Translations under genes and position numbers: made by a program
Notes under the pieces: model-generated
Databases searched by the model: none
Told to the model about the DNA's origin: nothing
The model's input: only the letters and a program-made list of their open reading frames with translations
Virus record (IMG/VR): IMGVR_UViG_3300033553_000597
Span: 1 to 34,080 of that record
Source: a virus
DNA: 34,080 bases
Direction: 5' to 3' (one strand)
Part shown: piece by piece, positions 7,332 to 33,758 of the stretch
Position numbering within the stretch: the first letter of the stretch is position 1
How the letters are laid out: every line of letters starts with the position of its first letter

Positions 7332-7390
7332 GTCCCTCCGGAGAGGGACCTAAAAGCGGCCGTCCTCCCTCCCCACGTCGGGGGAGGGAG
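7332..7390 (-). terminator. Two perfect hairpins after the major head gene
   Basis: The gap between T and the gp35-like gene holds two perfect inverted repeats. One is 7365-7374 with 7381-7390 (ten GC-rich pairs, 6-base loop). The other is 7332-7338 with 7343-7349 (seven pairs, CGGA-type tetraloop). Neither is followed by a long U run on the minus strand. They more likely act as mRNA 3'-end stabilisers or partial terminators that keep capsid mRNA in excess than as full stops. Confidence 0.55.
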
Positions 7391-7402
7391 CAGGTCCGTG
7401 GT

Positions 7403-8323
7403 TTATGCCAGGCCGGTGCTGCCGTAAGACAGCTGCCACAGGGCATAGCCCCCGGCATACCGGGCCTCAGCCCCGAATTTAAACTTGCGGCTCATAAAGA
7501 CGGCCTCTGATTCCGCGGTCACCTGCTGAACAAATACCGGCTTCTTGCGCTCCTGGAGAATGAACGGCTTGATCGGCATATTGGTGCAGTGTAGGAACCA
7601 GGCTGTGGAGCTGGTCAGCCGGGGATTGACCAATAAAGTAGCCGTGCCCTTGAAAGGGTTGGGCGAATTATCGTTGAGTTTGTCAGCGGTCAGCAGCAGA
7701 TTGCCCATGGCTTCGAGCGCCGGTGGCACTTCCAAGACATTCGGCACCATGCCCAGCGGTCGGCCTTCGTCATCTTTAAAGCTCATAATGGCAGTCCGGG
7801 CCGCACCGTAAGAGGCCTGAGCTGCGACCAGCGTGGCGTTGGATAAAGCCTTGGTGCCCTTGTTGGACACGCTGACGCTACCTCCGTCGCCATCGCCCAC
7901 GGCATGATCAGTGTCATAAAAATACTGGCCGTCGTAACAGAGGCCGGTAAAGGCGCCGTTCTTGATATCGGCCATGATCTCATCCGGCAGCTGCTTGGCT
8001 GAAAAGCCGGCTGATTCCGCCTGCGGTCCGTAGATGCCTAGATTGTCATCTTCGATATCGTTGCGATCCACTTCGACCGTTGCTTCCCAGTCGTCATTGA
8101 CAATTGAATACTTAAAAGCGGCCAGGGCCTTGATCACCTTGTCGCCCATCCACTTCCGCATTTTGGGAAATGAGGACAGCCAGGCATAATCGTTTTGTTT
8201 ACTGGTAGACTGCACCAGCATGGCGGTCTGCTGCCACTGGGCGGGCGCGGCATCAAACGCCCGGTGGAACGTGGTTTTGATATTGGTAAAAACTGCGGCC
8301 AGGGTGGCTCCGTTGACTAACAT
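7403..8323 (-). CDS. T: Major capsid protein, Mu gpT family, 306 aa
   Basis: Major head subunit. Strong resemblance to Mu gpT along the whole length: the N-terminal AMLVQSTSKQNDYAWLSSFP, the central DRNDIEDDNLGIYGP followed by CYDGQYFYDTDH, and near the end IKPFILQERKKP and FKFGAEARYAGGYALWQ. The length matches the family (about 305). It forms the icosahedral shell around the I/Z scaffold. The gene is flanked by a decoration protein upstream and by hairpins downstream. Confidence 0.96.
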   Translation of the reverse strand: MLVNGATLAAVFTNIKTTFHRAFDAAPAQWQQTAMLVQSTSKQNDYAWLSSFPKMRKWMGDKVIKALAAFKYSIVNDDWEATVEVDRNDIEDDNLGIYGPQAESAGFSAKQLPDEIMADIKNGAFTGLCYDGQYFYDTDHAVGDGDGGSVSVSNKGTKALSNATLVAAQASYGAARTAIMSFKDDEGRPLGMVPNVLEVPPALEAMGNLLLTADKLNDNSPNPFKGTATLLVNPRLTSSTAWFLHCTNMPIKPFILQERKKPVFVQQVTAESEAVFMSRKFKFGAEARYAGGYALWQLSYGSTGLA

Positions 8324-27159: not shown

Positions 27160-27791
27160 TGGGCCTCCTTCTGGGGCGCTGCCGCCTCGGGGGTGAGCCC
27201 TGGGGCCTCGCTCCACATCACTTTTTTCAGGTTCTGATCCCAGACCCGCTTGACCCGCTGAATCATCGGCGGTTTAGGCCCGGTATGCATGCTCGGTTTA
27301 AAACGGTAGTTGCCTTTGATCTTGAGCAGATAACCGGCCTGCGCCAGATGGTTGGCATAGCTGCGGGCCGTGTCCTCGCTGATCACACAGCTCTCGGTTG
27401 AGGCCGACACCGCCAGCTCACGGGCGGAAAAGCTGCCGAGGATGCGCATGGTCCGCCACATATTGACGGTGCCCTGGCCCTGGGTAACGGGGGTGCCGTC
27501 TTTGCGGACCCTGGGGGCGTCAACACCGACATCCTTGATCAGCAGGTAAATAGCGGCCGTTCTACTCACGCCCGCGCCGCCTGGGACAGTTTTTGAATGA
27601 GGACTTTTTGCCAGATAACCGGCCGTTTCCAGCCCGGTCACATATTCACGCACGCTATCCTGCTCCAGGGTGGTACGCTCAGACAGCTCCCGCACCGTAA
27701 AGCTCTGAATCTTCCTGATTTCCACCCATAGCGCCTCCCGGCTGTCAAAACCGTTGAGCTTATCCATGGGCTTGCGCTTGACTTTGGCCAT
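27156..27791 (-). CDS. Double winged-helix early protein, 211 aa
   Basis: Two similar winged-helix units. The first (about 18-65) runs WVEIRKIQSFTVRELSERT then VREYVTGLETAGYLAKSP. The second (about 120-165) runs WRTMRILGSFSARELAVSAS then ARSYANHLAQAGYLLKIKG. The repeat suggests an internal duplication. The start overlaps the B stop as TAATG, with GGAGG upstream; a longer frame would overlap B. It lies directly after A and B, so a role in transposition or early control is likely. Confidence 0.85.
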   Translation of the reverse strand: MAKVKRKPMDKLNGFDSREALWVEIRKIQSFTVRELSERTTLEQDSVREYVTGLETAGYLAKSPHSKTVPGGAGVSRTAAIYLLIKDVGVDAPRVRKDGTPVTQGQGTVNMWRTMRILGSFSARELAVSASTESCVISEDTARSYANHLAQAGYLLKIKGNYRFKPSMHTGPKPPMIQRVKRVWDQNLKKVMWSEAPGLTPEAAAPQKEAQ

Positions 27792-28558
27792 TATCCAACC
27801 CTCCGCACCGGAGCCTCGCCGGTGAAGAATTCGCGCTTGCCCCAATCTTTGAGGCAGATGCTGTCCAGGCCGACATCACGGGCCTCATCCTGCACCCGCT
27901 CCAGGTTAACGGCGATTCGGCGGGCTGAGCCCTTGCTGGCCGCATGCACCGCCCGCAGCAGATCCTCCTCAATGGCGACATCACAATAGAGATGAGCCAG
28001 GTGGCGGCAATCGTCCATATCGGCCGGTTGCGCCGGGATCCAGTCCAGGACCCGACCATGAAAGCGCTCCCAGCGTTTCAATTTCTCCGGCAGGCGCTCT
28101 TCACCGATCAGCAGGATGGCCGCGCCTGAGCCTTCGTAGATATCGCGGATCATCTCGACCGCGCCTTTAGTAACCAGGTGATCCAGCTCATCGATAATCA
28201 ATGGTTTGAGGCTCATGGCCAACTGCTCACAGACCTGATCGACCATTTCAAACAGGGTTTTGGCCGGAGAAATACCCATATCTTTGAGGATGGCCATCAG
28301 CACCGCTTTGCGGGTCCAGCTCGATTTACACTCGATATAATAGGCGCCCTGGGAGTTGGCGGCATAGGCGGCGGCAGTCGATTTACCCCAGCCGGATGGG
28401 CCGTAAAAGCAGACGAAGCCCGGCAGATGCGCCGGCCGGTCTACCGCCCGCATCAGGGCCTTGCTGCACAGGCTCACATTGGTGAGCGGGGCCGTAGTTG
28501 ACAAGTGCAGCACCGAGCCTCCCGGCTCAGCATTGCGGATTTGTTTCAGTTGTGGCAT
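27791..28558 (-). CDS. B: Transposition target-capture ATPase, Mu B-like, 255 aa
   Basis: AAA+ ATPase that binds target DNA and activates the transposase. Walker A GPSGWGKST is at 53-61, Walker B PLIIDELDHL around 119-128, sensor-type LLIGEERLP near 149, and an arginine-rich C-terminal part (KGSARRIAVNLERVQD). Start MPQLKQIRN at 28558 is chosen because AGGAGAG sits 5 bases upstream; the longer frame from 28639 crosses a hairpin. It lies after A with a membrane peptide between. Confidence 0.92.
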   Translation of the reverse strand: MPQLKQIRNAEPGGSVLHLSTTAPLTNVSLCSKALMRAVDRPAHLPGFVCFYGPSGWGKSTAAAYAANSQGAYYIECKSSWTRKAVLMAILKDMGISPAKTLFEMVDQVCEQLAMSLKPLIIDELDHLVTKGAVEMIRDIYEGSGAAILLIGEERLPEKLKRWERFHGRVLDWIPAQPADMDDCRHLAHLYCDVAIEEDLLRAVHAASKGSARRIAVNLERVQDEARDVGLDSICLKDWGKREFFTGEAPVRRVG

Positions 28559-28603
28559 AATCTCTCCTGTAGATGGTCTGTAAATGGCTCTGGTGAGCCT
28601 GTT

Positions 28604-28629
28604 AAAGCCGTGGCGGCAACCACGGCTTT
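28604..28629. repeat. Perfect 10-bp hairpin upstream of B
   Basis: AAAGCCGTGG (28604-28613) and CCACGGCTTT (28620-28629) enclose a 6-base loop. It lies in the gap between the 27-aa peptide gene and B, about 45 bases before the B ribosome site. No long U run follows on the minus strand, so it may be an attenuator or mRNA stability element that lowers B relative to A. Confidence 0.75.
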
Positions 28630-28674
28630 CTCTCTTCAAAAATTATTTAATTTAATTACCGGCCAGCACTGGCC

Positions 28675-28758
28675 TCAGATCAAATTCCCCAGTGCCACCC
28701 GCAAAACGATGATTGCGGCTAGGACGGCCAGGATCATCACCCAGTCAATCCGCGTCAT
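28675..28758 (-). CDS. 27-aa single-helix membrane peptide
   Basis: A complete small frame too short for ordinary gene calling. The ATG overlaps the A stop as ATGA and has GAGGTGGGG upstream. Almost all of it is one hydrophobic helix (WVMILAVLAAIIVL) with a charged start (MTRID). The overlap and ribosome site are good; no family is recognised. A regulatory or membrane-perturbing peptide is possible. Confidence 0.55.
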   Translation of the reverse strand: MTRIDWVMILAVLAAIIVLRVALGNLI

Positions 28759-30878
28759 TTCCCCACCTCGCTAAACTGCTCTTCCGTGGCCCGGAAAGCC
28801 TTATAAGTAATGCCGTTGCAAAACGAGTTGTAAAACCGCAGTTCTTTGCCCTCCAGGGTTTCCCCCTGGTTGACCTTCACATCCAACGCCTTCCAGAACC
28901 CATATTTACCCTTATCATCGGCGGGGATCTCCACCAACGGCGCTGCCGCCATTTCAGCCTGCAGCTGGGCGCGGTCGGCCCGGATCTTTGGAGATGATGC
29001 CTGGTAATCAATCATCTTGACCACCGGTGCTGCCTCAATCAGGCCGCGTTCTTCAGCATCGATCTCGCTGATCTTGTCCAGATTGATCTGCCGCCGCCGC
29101 TGGGCCCGCTTCCTGCTGGCCTCCTCGACCTGGGCCTGCGGGAAGTAGCTCGTCCGGTTTTTCTCAAAAATGGCATAACAGAGCATCTGGCCGTCAGCAT
29201 TCCAGATCTGCACCTTTTCGCCGTCATGGATGTCGTAACCAACCTGCACCGTCTCGCCCTCGTAATGCTCAAGAATCTTGTGGCAGTAGGTGTTTGAGAA
29301 AATCCCCACGCTGGCCCGCCGTACCACCCTTGTTTCGCGGGGCAGGAACAACAGGTCAAGATCGGTCTGCGCCAACCGGCATTCCTCGGGATTCCAGCCG
29401 TTCATCATATGCCAGGCCAGCAGCTCCAGAGGAGCCATATGGCGCCGGGCGCCGGTCTCGGGATCATTAAACTTAGGCAGGGAAGAATGCGGCCGGCGAT
29501 TATAGGCCTCTACCGACTGCTGACAGTGCTCCATAAACTGCGGCCAGGAAGGCAAGTGGTGCGAGACCCCGTTCTGCTTGATCTGCCGGTTGACCAGCAG
29601 GTACATATTGCGGCTGGTCAGGCTATCCATCTGCTTCCCCATATAGGTCGGCAGCTCTTTGGCCGAGCGGATCCACAACGATGAATTCAGGCGCTCAATC
29701 AGGCCGCGTCCCTGGGCGTTACCGGGAATACCGGTCCGATGGGTGGAGCCGATGCGGGCGAAGATGCCGGTCAGTTCGTCATCATTGACCCCGGCCATAT
29801 TACCGGCGCCGTTATCGGTGTAAAAGATGGCAAAAACGCCGCCGTATTGCTTGTTTTCATTTATGGTGGCGGCATGGCGCACCGCGCCGGCCACTGTCAG
29901 GGCCGATTCCGCCAGGCCTACCGACCAGCCCATAATCATCTTGGTGGCTGCATCGATTACCGAGCAGATCTCCGGTTTGAACGGGTTGCCGGTAATGGGA
30001 TGGGCCACTTTGGCCTTAAATGAATGACCGTCGCAGACCCCGACCTGAAAAGGCAGCAGCTCGCTGGTATCGCGTTTGCGGTAACCCTGTAAGGCCCGGA
30101 ATTCAGAGCCGGTTTTACGGCCGCGTTCCCGATCCAGGCGGCTGCGTTTTGTATGGAACCGGTAGACCTGGTGATAAGTAGGCATCACCATGCCCTCCGG
30201 TAAAATCTTGGCCATGGCCTCCATAGCCTCAGTCAGGCTGGGGTTCTGGGGCTGGCCGTAGCAACTGATGAATAAAGGCGCCCAGGTGGCGATCCGCCGT
30301 TCTCGGACAGGTCGGGGGGCCAGACCCATTTCGCCATGCTTTTTCACGCGGCGATCCCAACCAAGTATCATTGATTTCGACAGGTGGCGGTCCTCACCGC
30401 GCCGGGCGTTGGCCTGCGCCACCATCGGCTGCAGATGGGCTGGCAGAGTAGAGGTCCGGGCCATAATCACCAGTTTTTCCACCGCCTTGCAGGTGCCGTG
30501 CAGGGTCTGCAATTGCTTGAATTCATTATACAGCGACAGCCGGGCCAGATAGATCTCCCGCTGCCAGTCTTTCAGCTCAGTGATGGCCTGCGGGCTGACT
30601 ATTTCCTGAAGCGCCACTTCTTTAGAGACTGCTGGGCGGATAATTTTCTTACTGACGGCCGGTACCAGCGCCTGACCGGCCGCTTCCATGGCCAACCGGT
30701 GCAGATGGTCTTTGGTGGCCTCCGGTAACGACGCGATCGCATATTCACGACCGCCGCCGCGCCCGGCTTTAGCTCGAAAAGGCCACTGCTCCCGGTCAGC
30801 CTTACGCTGTACACTTCGCTCCGTTCCTGGCAACCCGGTCAGGCCAGCCAATTCTTTTGCTGTATAATGGCTTTTCAT
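28755..30878 (-). CDS. A: DDE transposase, Mu A-like, 707 aa
   Basis: The transposase that cuts the phage ends and joins them to target DNA. The N-terminal Mu DNA-binding winged helix is at 4-58 (HYTAKELAGLTGLPGTERSV). The middle HTH region is at about 100-250. The RNase H-like catalytic core has D283 (VCDGHSF), D355 (FYTDNGAGN) and E395 (RGLIERLNSS). The Mu-type C-terminal beta-barrel is at about 500-575 and a basic tail near 585-600 (RKRAQRRRQ). Length is close to Mu A (663). It starts by ATGA overlap with the gene before. All three acidic residues are intact. Confidence 0.97.
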   Translation of the reverse strand: MKSHYTAKELAGLTGLPGTERSVQRKADREQWPFRAKAGRGGGREYAIASLPEATKDHLHRLAMEAAGQALVPAVSKKIIRPAVSKEVALQEIVSPQAITELKDWQREIYLARLSLYNEFKQLQTLHGTCKAVEKLVIMARTSTLPAHLQPMVAQANARRGEDRHLSKSMILGWDRRVKKHGEMGLAPRPVRERRIATWAPLFISCYGQPQNPSLTEAMEAMAKILPEGMVMPTYHQVYRFHTKRSRLDRERGRKTGSEFRALQGYRKRDTSELLPFQVGVCDGHSFKAKVAHPITGNPFKPEICSVIDAATKMIMGWSVGLAESALTVAGAVRHAATINENKQYGGVFAIFYTDNGAGNMAGVNDDELTGIFARIGSTHRTGIPGNAQGRGLIERLNSSLWIRSAKELPTYMGKQMDSLTSRNMYLLVNRQIKQNGVSHHLPSWPQFMEHCQQSVEAYNRRPHSSLPKFNDPETGARRHMAPLELLAWHMMNGWNPEECRLAQTDLDLLFLPRETRVVRRASVGIFSNTYCHKILEHYEGETVQVGYDIHDGEKVQIWNADGQMLCYAIFEKNRTSYFPQAQVEEASRKRAQRRRQINLDKISEIDAEERGLIEAAPVVKMIDYQASSPKIRADRAQLQAEMAAAPLVEIPADDKGKYGFWKALDVKVNQGETLEGKELRFYNSFCNGITYKAFRATEEQFSEVGK

Positions 30879-31351
30879 TTCTCCATTTCCTTCAAGAAAA
30901 GCTCGCGTTTACGCCGTTCCTGATTGATGCGCCGGGAATCCTCTTCTAGCTTCCTAATCTCGCAGCGCAGTGCATCCGGGCCCGGCAAAGCAAACAATCC
31001 GGCCGTCTCAGCCAACATCTGCAAAGGGCCGTTATCGCCGGTCACCTGGCAGAAGGCCGGCAGATACTCAGCCGGCAGCCGGTGTCCATCTTTGCTTTCC
31101 GCCGTCCACGCATCCAAGGAATATTTACTTATCTCCTGGCCCAGCAGGTGGCTCATCTTCCCGGCAATCTCCCAGCGCGACCAGGGGCACTGTTTGATTG
31201 CCGCGCACATGGCCAGCCGCAGCCTCTCCCGCACATTAGCCGCCCCTTCGTCAGCCGGGTCCTGTTTAACCTCATCCTGGAGTTGCGTCAGGAGATCAAA
31301 CAGGCTCATTTGGCTGTTTTTCGTGTCTATTTTCTTCTTTGCTTTAGTCAT
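30875..31351 (-). CDS. Early phage protein with DNA-binding look, 158 aa
   Basis: Sits between the Ner-like gene and A. Residues about 45-95 (LAMCAAIKQCPWSRWEIAGKMSHLLGQEISKYSLDAWTAES) resemble an HTH of the phage CII/regulatory type. A central LPAEYLPAFCQVTGD and a charged C-terminal coiled coil (IRKLEEDSRRINQERRKREL) follow. Start ATG has AGGAAGGCAGTCA upstream. A role in early regulation or as a transposase partner is inferred. Confidence 0.75.
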   Translation of the reverse strand: MTKAKKKIDTKNSQMSLFDLLTQLQDEVKQDPADEGAANVRERLRLAMCAAIKQCPWSRWEIAGKMSHLLGQEISKYSLDAWTAESKDGHRLPAEYLPAFCQVTGDNGPLQMLAETAGLFALPGPDALRCEIRKLEEDSRRINQERRKRELFLKEMEK

Positions 31352-31656
31352 TGACTGCCTTCCTTAGTCTTGCTACTATGACCATCAAATAACTGCGCCT
31401 TCAGCTTGTTTTCATATTCGCCGCGGCGTTTTTTGATCTCTTGGGCAATCAGCTGGCGTAAAAGAGAGGCGGACCGCGTCCCAAAGCACTCATCTACGGT
31501 CAGCCCCAGAAAACCGGCCACCGCCTCTCTGATATGCGGCGTCTGCCTAGTCCCTTTGACCGTCTTCTGCACCGAGTGCATATCCTGCCCGAGCTGCTCG
31601 GCCAGATTCCGCATGGAGATTTTGCGGGCTTTAAAGAGTCGTTGCAGGTTGTTCAT
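31348..31656 (-). CDS. Ner/Cro-like HTH regulator, 102 aa
   Basis: First gene of the early operon, opposite to the repressor. HTH residues about 14-50: ISMRNLAEQLGQDMHSVQKTVKGTRQTPHIREAV, of the lambda-Cro type, with a basic C-terminus (KKRRGEYENKLKAQL). In Mu the ner gene has this place and turns down early transcription. The sequence differs from Mu Ner itself, so it is called Ner-like by position. The ribosome site is weak (GGA 10 bases upstream). Confidence 0.8.
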   Translation of the reverse strand: MNNLQRLFKARKISMRNLAEQLGQDMHSVQKTVKGTRQTPHIREAVAGFLGLTVDECFGTRSASLLRQLIAQEIKKRRGEYENKLKAQLFDGHSSKTKEGSQ

Positions 31657-31753: not shown

Positions 31754-31782
31754 AACATATTTCTATTTTTAACGCACGTCAA
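31754..31782 (-). promoter_or_regulatory. Leftward early promoter
   Basis: -35 TTGACG (plus-strand 31777-31782) and -10 TATGTT (31754-31759) with the ideal 17-base spacer. It reads into the Ner-like gene, which starts about 95 bases further on. Just upstream of the -35 lies an operator-like repeat (31793-31805), so repressor bound there could block or bend the promoter. Confidence 0.72.
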
Positions 31783-31792
31783 GTCAAAAATT

Positions 31793-31805
31793 ACGCGTCG
31801 GAGTT
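31793..31805 (+). promoter_or_regulatory. Operator-like copy R1, ACGCGTCGGAGTT
   Basis: One of the three full 13-base copies of ACGCGTCGGAGTT in the switch region. It is 10 bases upstream (outside) of the leftward early promoter -35. Other copies lie at 31883-31895 and, inverted, 31929-31941. A shared recognition sequence for the adjacent repressor is the obvious reading. Confidence 0.65.
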
Positions 31806-31812
31806 TAATATT

Positions 31813-31917
31813 ATGAAAAAAACTCATATTGTTACAATTAAAACGCAAAAACAATACATTATAAAACTACGACACAAAAAAAACGCGTCGGAGTTCACGT
31901 CGGAGTTAGGCAAATGA
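31813..31917 (+). CDS. Possible 34-aa leader peptide overlapping the repressor
   Basis: Frame from ATG 31813 to TGA, ending in ATGA overlap with the repressor start. GGAG of operator copy R1 is about 9 bases upstream. It is Lys-rich (MKKTHIVTIKTQKQYIIKLR), and its last residues (NASEFTSELG) are spelled out by the operator repeats. It may be a leader whose translation opens the hairpin over the repressor start, or it may be chance. A longer frame from TTG 31723 crosses the early promoter and is unlikely. Confidence 0.3.
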   Translation: MKKTHIVTIKTQKQYIIKLRHKKNASEFTSELGK

Positions 31918-31942
31918 ACTCCGACATAAACTCCGACGCGTT
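31882..31942 (+). promoter_or_regulatory. Nested dyad / hairpin over the repressor start codon
   Basis: The outer arms 31882-31895 and 31929-31942 pair perfectly over 14 bases. After a CAC/ATA internal loop, the inner arms GTCGGAGTT (31899-31907) and AACTCCGAC (31917-31925) pair over 9 bases. The loop AGGCAAATG (31908-31916) holds the repressor ATG. The GGAG ribosome site (31902-31905) is inside the inner stem. The same bases are the repeated operator cores, so the element can act as DNA (operators) and as RNA (hidden start). Confidence 0.85.
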
Positions 31943-32705
31943 CTGGGATAGATTAAAAGCGGCTATTGGGCGGCGATCGAATAGATCTGTAGCTGATCAA
32001 TGTGGTCTTTCTGAAGGGACAATTCGTCGTTATTTACGCAAAGAGACCTATCCCTCCTTAGATAAAATACGCGACATTGCCAAAGTCACAGAGGTTAACA
32101 CTGATTGGCTGCTTACTGGTGAAGGCCCAATGCGCCAAGGCGAAACAGCTTTAGCCATTCCTAGCCAACAACCACAACTACTCTTAAAAGAAGAGGACGC
32201 GCCAGAATTTATCAGCTACGAAGACGCGACCGAACAGACCCAGCAGCATATAGATATTCCTCAGTGGCCCCATCCGGATGCCGACGCCTTTCATTATGTG
32301 CCTATGGCCAAGGCTAAGCTCTGTGCTGGCGGGGGGATGTTTGTTTTGTCAGAGGATGTCTCAGATTATTATGCCTTCCGAAAAACCTGGCTGAAAAGAA
32401 TATCAACCAGCCCTAAGAGCGTTGTCTTAATGGAAGTACAAGGCAATTCCATGGCCCCGACTATCCTTGATAAGGATACTGTCATGATCGATACAGGACG
32501 CCTGGAAATTATAGAAGGAATGATCTACGCCATTCGCCTAGATCAAACAATAATGATAAAACGCCTAACCCACCGTCCAGGCGGTATAATCAACGTAATA
32601 TCAGACAACAAAGAAGAATTTGAGCCCTACCAAGCCCACCGTAAAGACGTCCATATCATCGGCCAAATAATCTATTTCAGCCGCGACCTTATCAGCGGAT
32701 ATTGA
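31914..32705 (+). CDS. CI/LexA-type phage repressor, HTH plus S24 peptidase, 263 aa
   Basis: N-terminal HTH at about 23-50 (NRSVADQCGLSEGTIRRYL). Linker. The S24 autoprotease has a likely self-cleavage pair A138-G139 (KLCAGGGMF), nucleophile Ser179 in QGNSMAPT and general base Lys216 in IMIKRL. Cleavage would be RecA-dependent, so the prophage may be induced by DNA damage, unlike the small Mu c repressor. The start codon lies in the loop of a nested hairpin whose arms encode the repeated NSD near the N-terminus (MNSDINSDAF). Divergent from the early operon; low GC compared with the late genes. Confidence 0.94.
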   Translation: MNSDINSDAFWDRLKAAIGRRSNRSVADQCGLSEGTIRRYLRKETYPSLDKIRDIAKVTEVNTDWLLTGEGPMRQGETALAIPSQQPQLLLKEEDAPEFISYEDATEQTQQHIDIPQWPHPDADAFHYVPMAKAKLCAGGGMFVLSEDVSDYYAFRKTWLKRISTSPKSVVLMEVQGNSMAPTILDKDTVMIDTGRLEIIEGMIYAIRLDQTIMIKRLTHRPGGIINVISDNKEEFEPYQAHRKDVHIIGQIIYFSRDLISGY

Positions 32706-32753: not shown

Positions 32754-33758
32754 TTGTCAAAAAAAATAAGTTCCTACGCTGAATTACTTGATTATGCAGA
32801 AGGATGTTTTCGTGGTACAAATAAAATTGATTCATTGGAAATAGGAGACTCTCTTGACTATAAGATCAAGATAACAGGAGGTACTTGGGACGGTTCAGTT
32901 GATTACCGGCTTGCTCAGTATATAATTGATACCCAAAATGCCTTGGACAAACTTTTTAAAGAATTAGGAATAGAACTCAAAGAACACGAAAGGCCTATAA
33001 TAAAGTTTAGAGTCGAATCTGGCTGCACTGAACTTTATATTAAAATCTCTGAAGCAGTTAAAACATTATTTGAAAACATGCCAAGCGGACAGAAAACATT
33101 TATTGCAGCCCTTATGCTTCTCTCAATAGTAGGCGCTTTTACTGCCTACGGTTTTATGCAATACAAAACCCAACAAGAACAGCATCTTTATGAACTTGAA
33201 AAACAGAAAATTCAGAATGAAAAAGAACTAAAACATCAAGAAATTTTAGTTAAAACTATAGATTCCTTGGCTGACAAAATTTCTACATACGAAACACCAA
33301 ACAGAAAACTTGCTAAAAATTTATACGAAGGAGATAAATTTGAAAACTCCACCAACCCTGAAGAGCTAACCAAGGAAGAGCTTAAACAACAATATCGTGG
33401 TAAGAGTAAATCTAAGGCTGAAACTGTTTATATAGATAATAAATACTTAATAACAGCTATAAAATTAAAAGCTGGGAAAATTACCATTGAACACGCTGGA
33501 CATCGATATGATTGCCAATCATCTCTTAATTTAGAAGAACTTGAAGATCTTTTAAATAGAGTAAAGGCCGGAATTGTGGAAGGAAAAGGCTTTGAACTTG
33601 ATCTAAAAATAAATGCAGAATATTACAAAGAAACCAAAAAACTTAAAAATCTTATTATTTATGAAATTGGCACCTCAAGAAAAAATGCTAAATCTATTGA
33701 TGATTTAATTAATATAAAACAAGAGGCATCACCAAATAGACAATATCCACTTTTTTAA
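32754..33758 (+). CDS. AT-rich membrane protein of unknown function (moron), 334 aa
   Basis: An N-terminal cytoplasmic-type domain (1-110) contains VDYRLAQYIIDTQNALDKLF and PIIKFRVESGCTELYIKI. One transmembrane helix lies at about 114-134 (FIAALMLLSIVGAFTAYGF), then a coiled coil at about 138-175 (QQEQHLYELEKQKIQNEKEL). The C-terminal domain (about 225-310) is beta-rich (YIDNKYLITAIKLKAGKITIEHAG). Start is TTG at 32754 with AGGAAA about 6 bases upstream. Composition is much more AT-rich than the phage core, a sign of separate acquisition. Position beside the repressor and its own promoter suggest expression in the lysogen, for example in exclusion or defence (inference). Confidence 0.82.
   Translation: MSKKISSYAELLDYAEGCFRGTNKIDSLEIGDSLDYKIKITGGTWDGSVDYRLAQYIIDTQNALDKLFKELGIELKEHERPIIKFRVESGCTELYIKISEAVKTLFENMPSGQKTFIAALMLLSIVGAFTAYGFMQYKTQQEQHLYELEKQKIQNEKELKHQEILVKTIDSLADKISTYETPNRKLAKNLYEGDKFENSTNPEELTKEELKQQYRGKSKSKAETVYIDNKYLITAIKLKAGKITIEHAGHRYDCQSSLNLEELEDLLNRVKAGIVEGKGFELDLKINAEYYKETKKLKNLIIYEIGTSRKNAKSIDDLINIKQEASPNRQYPLF

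Follow-up and report, generated by a model that had tools for sequence, protein, structure and literature searches.

A half-site array of constant spacing across the repressor start of Mu-like phages is a candidate Mu-type transposition enhancer

Introduction

What is a nested dyad doing across the start codon of a phage repressor gene? The window analysed here, the whole 34,080-nt virus record IMGVR_UViG_3300033553_000597, is a Mu-like phage in which the genes for a MuA-type transposase, a MuB-type ATPase and a Ner-like regulator are oriented leftward, and the gene for a CI-type repressor with an S24 domain is oriented rightward. An original prediction made from the letters of the window proposed that the dyad serves both as operator DNA and as a translational lock on the repressor, and that a third use, as a transposition enhancer, was conceivable. 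The transposition enhancer is a defining regulatory element of phage Mu. According to a 2021 paper on transposable and Leptospira prophages, the enhancer-binding domain ‘so far appears specific to Mu’ (PMC8705779), and a search of the open-access literature turned up no published operator or enhancer array for phages like D3112. Within that search, a widespread enhancer-like array in Mu-like phages would be new.

Materials and methods

Single-sequence searches with the window’s repressor or transposase found no close relatives. Alignment-based searches did find relatives, which were gathered through transposase and repressor alignments. An array template of ~10-bp half-sites, at 0 (+), 69 (−), 80 or 91 (+), 103 (+) and 121 (−), was scanned across 128 phage repressor loci. 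Correlations between half-site words and protein segments were computed over 50 loci; the MuA proteins of L211, L215 and L244 lay outside this set and were checked afterwards.

Results

The dyad is the end of a half-site array

The window’s transposase and repressor differ in the kind of DNA-binding domain that they carry. Residues 6–57 of the transposase match the I-alpha structure PDB 1tns (E 1.4e-4), whereas the repressor matches HTH_3/Phage_CI_repr and S24 and has no match to PF02316 in Pfam. On the 3′ side of the repressor gene is a 334-aa protein (32754–33758, +) with an apparent membrane segment, whose only confident match is PHROG 6191, a family of unknown function. The remaining genes and control elements are collected in Table 1.

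Folding and comparison of the dyad arms bore out the geometry of the original prediction. The two 26-nt arms (31882–31907 and 31917–31942) are 92% complementary and separated by 9 nt. As RNA they are predicted to form a 14-bp outer stem (31882–31895 with 31929–31942), a 3 × 3 internal loop and a 9-bp inner stem (31899–31907 with 31917–31925) that holds GGAG at 31902–31905 and is closed by the 9-nt loop AGGCAAATG carrying the repressor ATG (31914–31916). The folding energy of 31850–31970, −39.5 kcal/mol (z −6.7), was equalled by 0/200 shuffles, placing the structure far beyond chance. The minus strand folds better still (−49.4, z −9.7), as is expected for any DNA dyad. Two further sequence claims also stood: the cores of the arms recur near the likely early promoter, at 31793–31805 (ACGCGTCGGAGTT), and the N-terminal NSD..NSD of the repressor is dictated by the repeats, since both 3′ arms code NSD.

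A search for the half-site GTCGGAGTT returned exactly five perfect copies in the window, all inside 31797–31937, plus a one-mismatch copy at 31865. The resulting array (31793–31937) sits between the Ner-like gene and the repressor gene, i.e. in the early promoter/repressor interval, and over the whole window the template scored 12.5 at the array and at most 3 anywhere else. The original prediction had overlooked that site spacing is constant and that the region also holds the one-mismatch copy, an IHF-like site (31849–31861) and a 34-aa open reading frame (31813–31917). Nesting of the dyad, and with it the second NSD, arises because one extra site lies 12 bp past the usual last site; this extra site (31929–31937) is absent from the compared relatives that share the window’s half-site. 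The distance between GTCAA, in the −35 element of the probable early promoter, and the distal site is the same in most relatives. TTAnnAA, at the possible −10 element of the repressor promoter, also recurs in close relatives, but its overlap with the IHF consensus makes the two hard to tell apart, so we regard a conserved repressor −10 (TGT-TAnnAA) as no more than possible.

Table 1. Positions of genes, promoters and array sites in the window
Feature	Position	Strand	Basis or remarks
MuB-type ATPase	27791..28639	−	Domain/PHROG matches
MuA-type transposase	28755..30878	−	Residues 8–100 match Mu DNA-binding domain (PF02316); recognition segment TERSVQRKADRE
158-aa regulator (PHROG 2345), between Ner-like gene and MuA	30875–31351	−	
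Ner-like HTH regulator	31348..31656	−	Domain/PHROG matches
Probable early promoter PE (leftward, ner/A/B)	31754..31782	−	−35 TTGACG 31782–31777, 17-bp spacer, −10 TATGTT 31759–31754; consensus scan
Distal site (site 0), ACGCGTCGGAGTT	31793..31805	+	Half-site search; next to likely early promoter
IHF-consensus-like site, AAACAATACATTA	31849..31861	+	Site 0 + 53; 8 of 9 specified positions
Possible repressor −10 TATAAA, uncertain	31860..31865	+	Overlaps end of IHF-like site; read from sequence
Array site ~+69, AACTACGAC, one mismatch	31865..31873	−	Half-site search, relatives, template
Nested dyad, entire	31882..31942	.	Folding and arm comparison
Array site ~+91, GTCGGAGTT, 5′ arm of outer stem	31887..31895	+	Half-site search, relatives, template
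Array site ~+103, GTCGGAGTT, 5′ arm of inner stem, contains GGAG	31899..31907	+	Folding, half-site search, relatives, template
Array site ~+121, AACTCCGAC, 3′ arm of inner stem, codes NSD	31917..31925	−	Folding, half-site search, relatives, template
Extra site, 12 bp further; 3′ arm of outer stem, second NSD	31929..31937	−	Half-site search
Repressor	31914..32705	+	263 aa; Cro/CI helix-turn-helix and S24 (LexA-type) peptidase domain; Pfam PF07022, PF01381, PF00717; PHROG 4

Array geometry is shared by phages with different half-site words

With a template derived from the window’s own group, 53/128 loci scored above any of 512 dinucleotide shuffles (0/512); a sign-flipped control template passed at 1 locus and shifted templates at 0–10. 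When the window’s group was left out, 24/110 loci passed in the first version of the template, compared with 1–9 for control templates. Cultured phages that have the array include D3112, DMS3, MP22 and Vibrio phage vB-Vv-ZX4290; Mu itself, B3 and RcapMu gave no match to the array template.

Among phages with the same half-site, the positions of the sites relative to the repressor start codon are nearly constant (distal site at −116 to −119, then ~−50, ~−27 or −38, −15 and +3). The distal site keeps its place in 10/10 phages of the GTCNGAGTT group, with one mismatch in one phage and a variant word in L222. L211 and L215, with repressor HTHs unlike the window’s, have the same distances apart from missing inner sites. 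A de novo word search recovered the same spacing built from wholly different words, such as GGTAAAAGTT in L018, CTTCCAAGTT in L217 and TGTCGCACTT in L041. This fixed array across relatives supports the proposal that the repeats act as DNA control sites. An IHF-like consensus falls, at the sequence level, in the interval separating the distal site from the array site that follows it: + strand matches to WATCAANNNNTTR at no fewer than 8/9 positions and at an offset of 53–55 were found in 25/53 arrays, where shuffles gave an expectation of 0.31.

The pattern GTCGGAGTT-N3-GTCGGAGTT alone was discarded as an array marker, as it is unspecific and mostly matches long same-strand repeat stretches in unrelated contigs. 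L098, L132, L162, L164 and other contigs carry long one-strand series of GTCNGAGTT with spacings mostly divisible by 3 (12, 18, 30, 36), and these are probably coding repeats unrelated to the array. In L028 (~7332–7460 of the reverse strand), almost the entire array lies in the repressor frame and codes an N-terminal extension.

The half-site word tracks the N-terminus of MuA

Presence of the array was tied to the kind of transposase, with the array found in 53/93 loci with an I-alpha-type domain (40/93 were below the array threshold) versus 0/35 loci without one (p = 1e-10, threshold 70). In Mu, I-alpha binds the enhancer at O1–O2 (PMC3562280, PMC3362531). Across the 50 loci, the half-site word correlated with the MuA N-terminal segment at r = 0.435, or 0.380 after controlling for the MuA body (0/2000 permutations), and at r = 0.346 given both the repressor helix and the body (0/1000); the MuA body given the N-terminus reached r = 0.03. 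The corresponding values for the repressor were r = 0.25 and, for its helix given the MuA N-terminus, r = 0.15. All of these values are subject to phylogenetic dependence, fragmentary records, predicted start codons and co-inheritance of the immunity cassette: phages share history, and the immunity region and MuA N-terminus may move as one unit, which can inflate correlations. By these comparisons, the link between the word and the predicted I-alpha domain of MuA does not depend on the remainder of the protein and is stronger than that between the word and the repressor.

The most predictive MuA residues were 25, 24 and 21, in the segment aligned to the I-alpha structure 1tns/1tnt, and words paired with residues there as GTCGG/TERSVQR, GTCAG/TES.VIR, TTTCG/RAIQ, CATCCG/ARNVKA, GTTCCG/RGV.KLAERE and TTTCAAGTT/VQGI. 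GTCAGAGTT is the array word of L216-type phages (MuA TESAVIR), and GTCGGAGTT that of the window (TERSVQR). The three MuA proteins outside the correlation set followed the same pairing: L215, with the GTCGG word, has TERSVQR as in the window and L220, while L211 and L244, with GTCAG, have TES[GA]VIR like L216, L219, L214 and L225. The MuA code still fits L211 and L215 although their repressor HTHs are unrelated, and L028 and L217 have the word and a TERAIRD motif in common, though again with unlike repressor HTHs. P. aeruginosa phages with near-identical MuA bodies differ sharply in residues 1–47, the I-alpha-type domain, and the words of D3112 and MP22/DMS3 differ. The MuA N-termini of the Pseudomonas loci L004, L064, L065, L081, L086 and L307 are of no fewer than five types, and the switch from the near-identical body is abrupt, near residue 47–52.

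Could the array be a repressor operator and nothing else? The CI/S24 repressor alone would then bind the half-sites to repress its own gene as well as the early promoter, and the link to MuA would reflect co-inheritance. Such an operator would suit the position of the array, which lies between early promoter and repressor gene, and similar recognition helices frequently have the same word. The weaker repressor–word link that remains after removing the MuA N-terminus speaks for an operator and against an enhancer. The report that D3112 and MP22, whose words differ, are not cross-immune (PMC4378225) also suits an operator. However, words are common to phages with unrelated repressor HTHs and matching MuA I-alpha segments (L211, L215 and the pair L217/L028), the array is missing from all 35 CI-repressor loci that lack an I-alpha-type domain, and MuA predicts the word better than the repressor does. 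We consider a pure operator unlikely.

We instead think it likely that a Mu-type transposition enhancer (internal activation sequence), read by the I-alpha domain of MuA, has its proximal end in the dyad. The array, the IHF offset and the word–I-alpha link now make this third use the best supported of those originally proposed. In this mechanism, the half-sites would form an enhancer of fixed geometry in which IHF bends the DNA separating the distal site from the proximal cluster, and the N-terminal winged-helix (I-alpha) domain of MuA would read the array and so help transpososome assembly. The array also overlaps the early-promoter control region and the first repressor codons, and it probably doubles as the repressor operator. 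Repressor binding to the repeats is plausible. A repressor occupying this DNA, or DNA that overlaps it, would silence both the early promoter and the repressor gene and keep the enhancer from acting, as happens in Mu. MuA binding, enhancer activity and repressor binding are all roles that we infer from sequence patterns. More tentatively, one array may be read by two unrelated folds, MuA I-alpha and a CI-type repressor, whose specificity has repeatedly changed with the word, with a code of ~10 MuA residues across dozens of phages.

The repressor start codon moves relative to the array

The proposed translational lock, in which the mRNA hairpin would hide the ribosome site and start codon and provide a second level of autoregulation, went unsupported. 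The hairpin is very stable, and the cost of opening the start region exceeds the control 95th percentile in 6/10 phages of the window’s group, the window included. However, several homologues keep the DNA repeats but break the pairing, the outcome that the original prediction had named as its refutation. L218 and L220 retain the half-sites with an uncompensated mismatch; L225 also retains them, but its arms contain mismatches and are shifted. In L222, a more diverged phage, the word has diverged and one arm is weakened. Opening costs in these four phages (10–13 kcal/mol) are ordinary (control genes, median 9.2, 95th percentile 17.2), and repressors as a class show no excess over other genes (median 9.0 vs 9.2, p = 0.65). 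The compensatory changes that had been suggested as a check do occur, at position 4 of the inner stem, but several breaks are uncompensated, and the same position-4 base change appears in the unpaired distal site, ~100 nt upstream, in 8/9 aligned phages. Since the covarying base also changes where nothing is paired, the specificity of a DNA-binding protein explains the compensatory change.

Across arrays, the start codon lies anywhere from site 0 + 16 to + 159. It falls within the last dyad in the window’s group and just past the dyad in others; in D3112-like phages it precedes the dyad, and the terminal site pair is tens of bases into the repressor coding sequence. On all three counts, the pairing, the cost of opening and the place of the start codon, the relatives led us to reject a conserved RNA lock; an operator combined with a lock is very improbable, and we take the strong hairpin in the mRNA to be, most likely, a side effect. 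Leader-peptide coupling, in which the 34-aa ORF MKKTHIV...SELGK (+ strand) would open the hairpin and deliver ribosomes to the repressor, was rejected as barely credible, since the ORF does overlap the repressor ATG with its TGA (ATGA) and has similar open frames with ATG starts in L219 and L225, but is not conserved among relatives (no such ORF in L216, L214, L220 or L222), has no family match, and would have an untranscribed start if the repressor promoter is near 31860.

Discussion

Like the Mu enhancer/operator (E, IAS, O1–O2), the array lies in the repressor–early promoter control region near one end, presumably the phage’s left end, and consists of several sites interrupted by an IHF site; for Mu, an IHF site between the operators is indicated by references cited in PMC3820752. 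As in Mu, the window’s transposase has an I-alpha-type N-terminal domain, here with a recognition segment that tracks the site word. The window differs from Mu in that its repressor is of the CI/S24 type and not a homologue of MuA I-alpha, as the Mu repressor is, and in having five half-sites with the IHF-like site at +53–55 and words that vary widely among phages, an arrangement whose template the Mu region does not match. The immunity regions of D3112, MP22 and DMS3 (Casadabanvirus) are the same in array geometry and IHF consensus offset, with the words GTTCCGCCTT; TTTTCAAGTT, but their repressor starts at site 0 + 50 to + 74, leaving the terminal sites within its coding sequence. Lambda-type CI operators resemble the window in combining an HTH and S24 repressor beside divergent promoters with inverted half-sites; unlike them, the window also has single, tandem and tail-to-tail half-sites in a fixed long array, and these track the transposase better than the repressor. 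The window’s mRNA can form a hairpin over the start codon, as in RBS-hiding hairpins, yet the structure is not conserved in homologues that keep the DNA sites.

If the enhancer reading is true, enhancer-like arrays would be common in Mu-like phages and recognisable by geometry without sequence similarity, with an IHF site in a fixed place and a testable protein–DNA recognition code, and immunity or transposition groups would be predictable from sequence. The phages would also offer dozens of natural variants for studying joint change of transposase, repressor and DNA. A separate observation concerns the repressors of L217 and L032/L216, which are 88% identical over matched residues 60–230, yet their N-terminal HTHs are unlike and their operator words differ, which suggests that a domain was exchanged at the immunity region.
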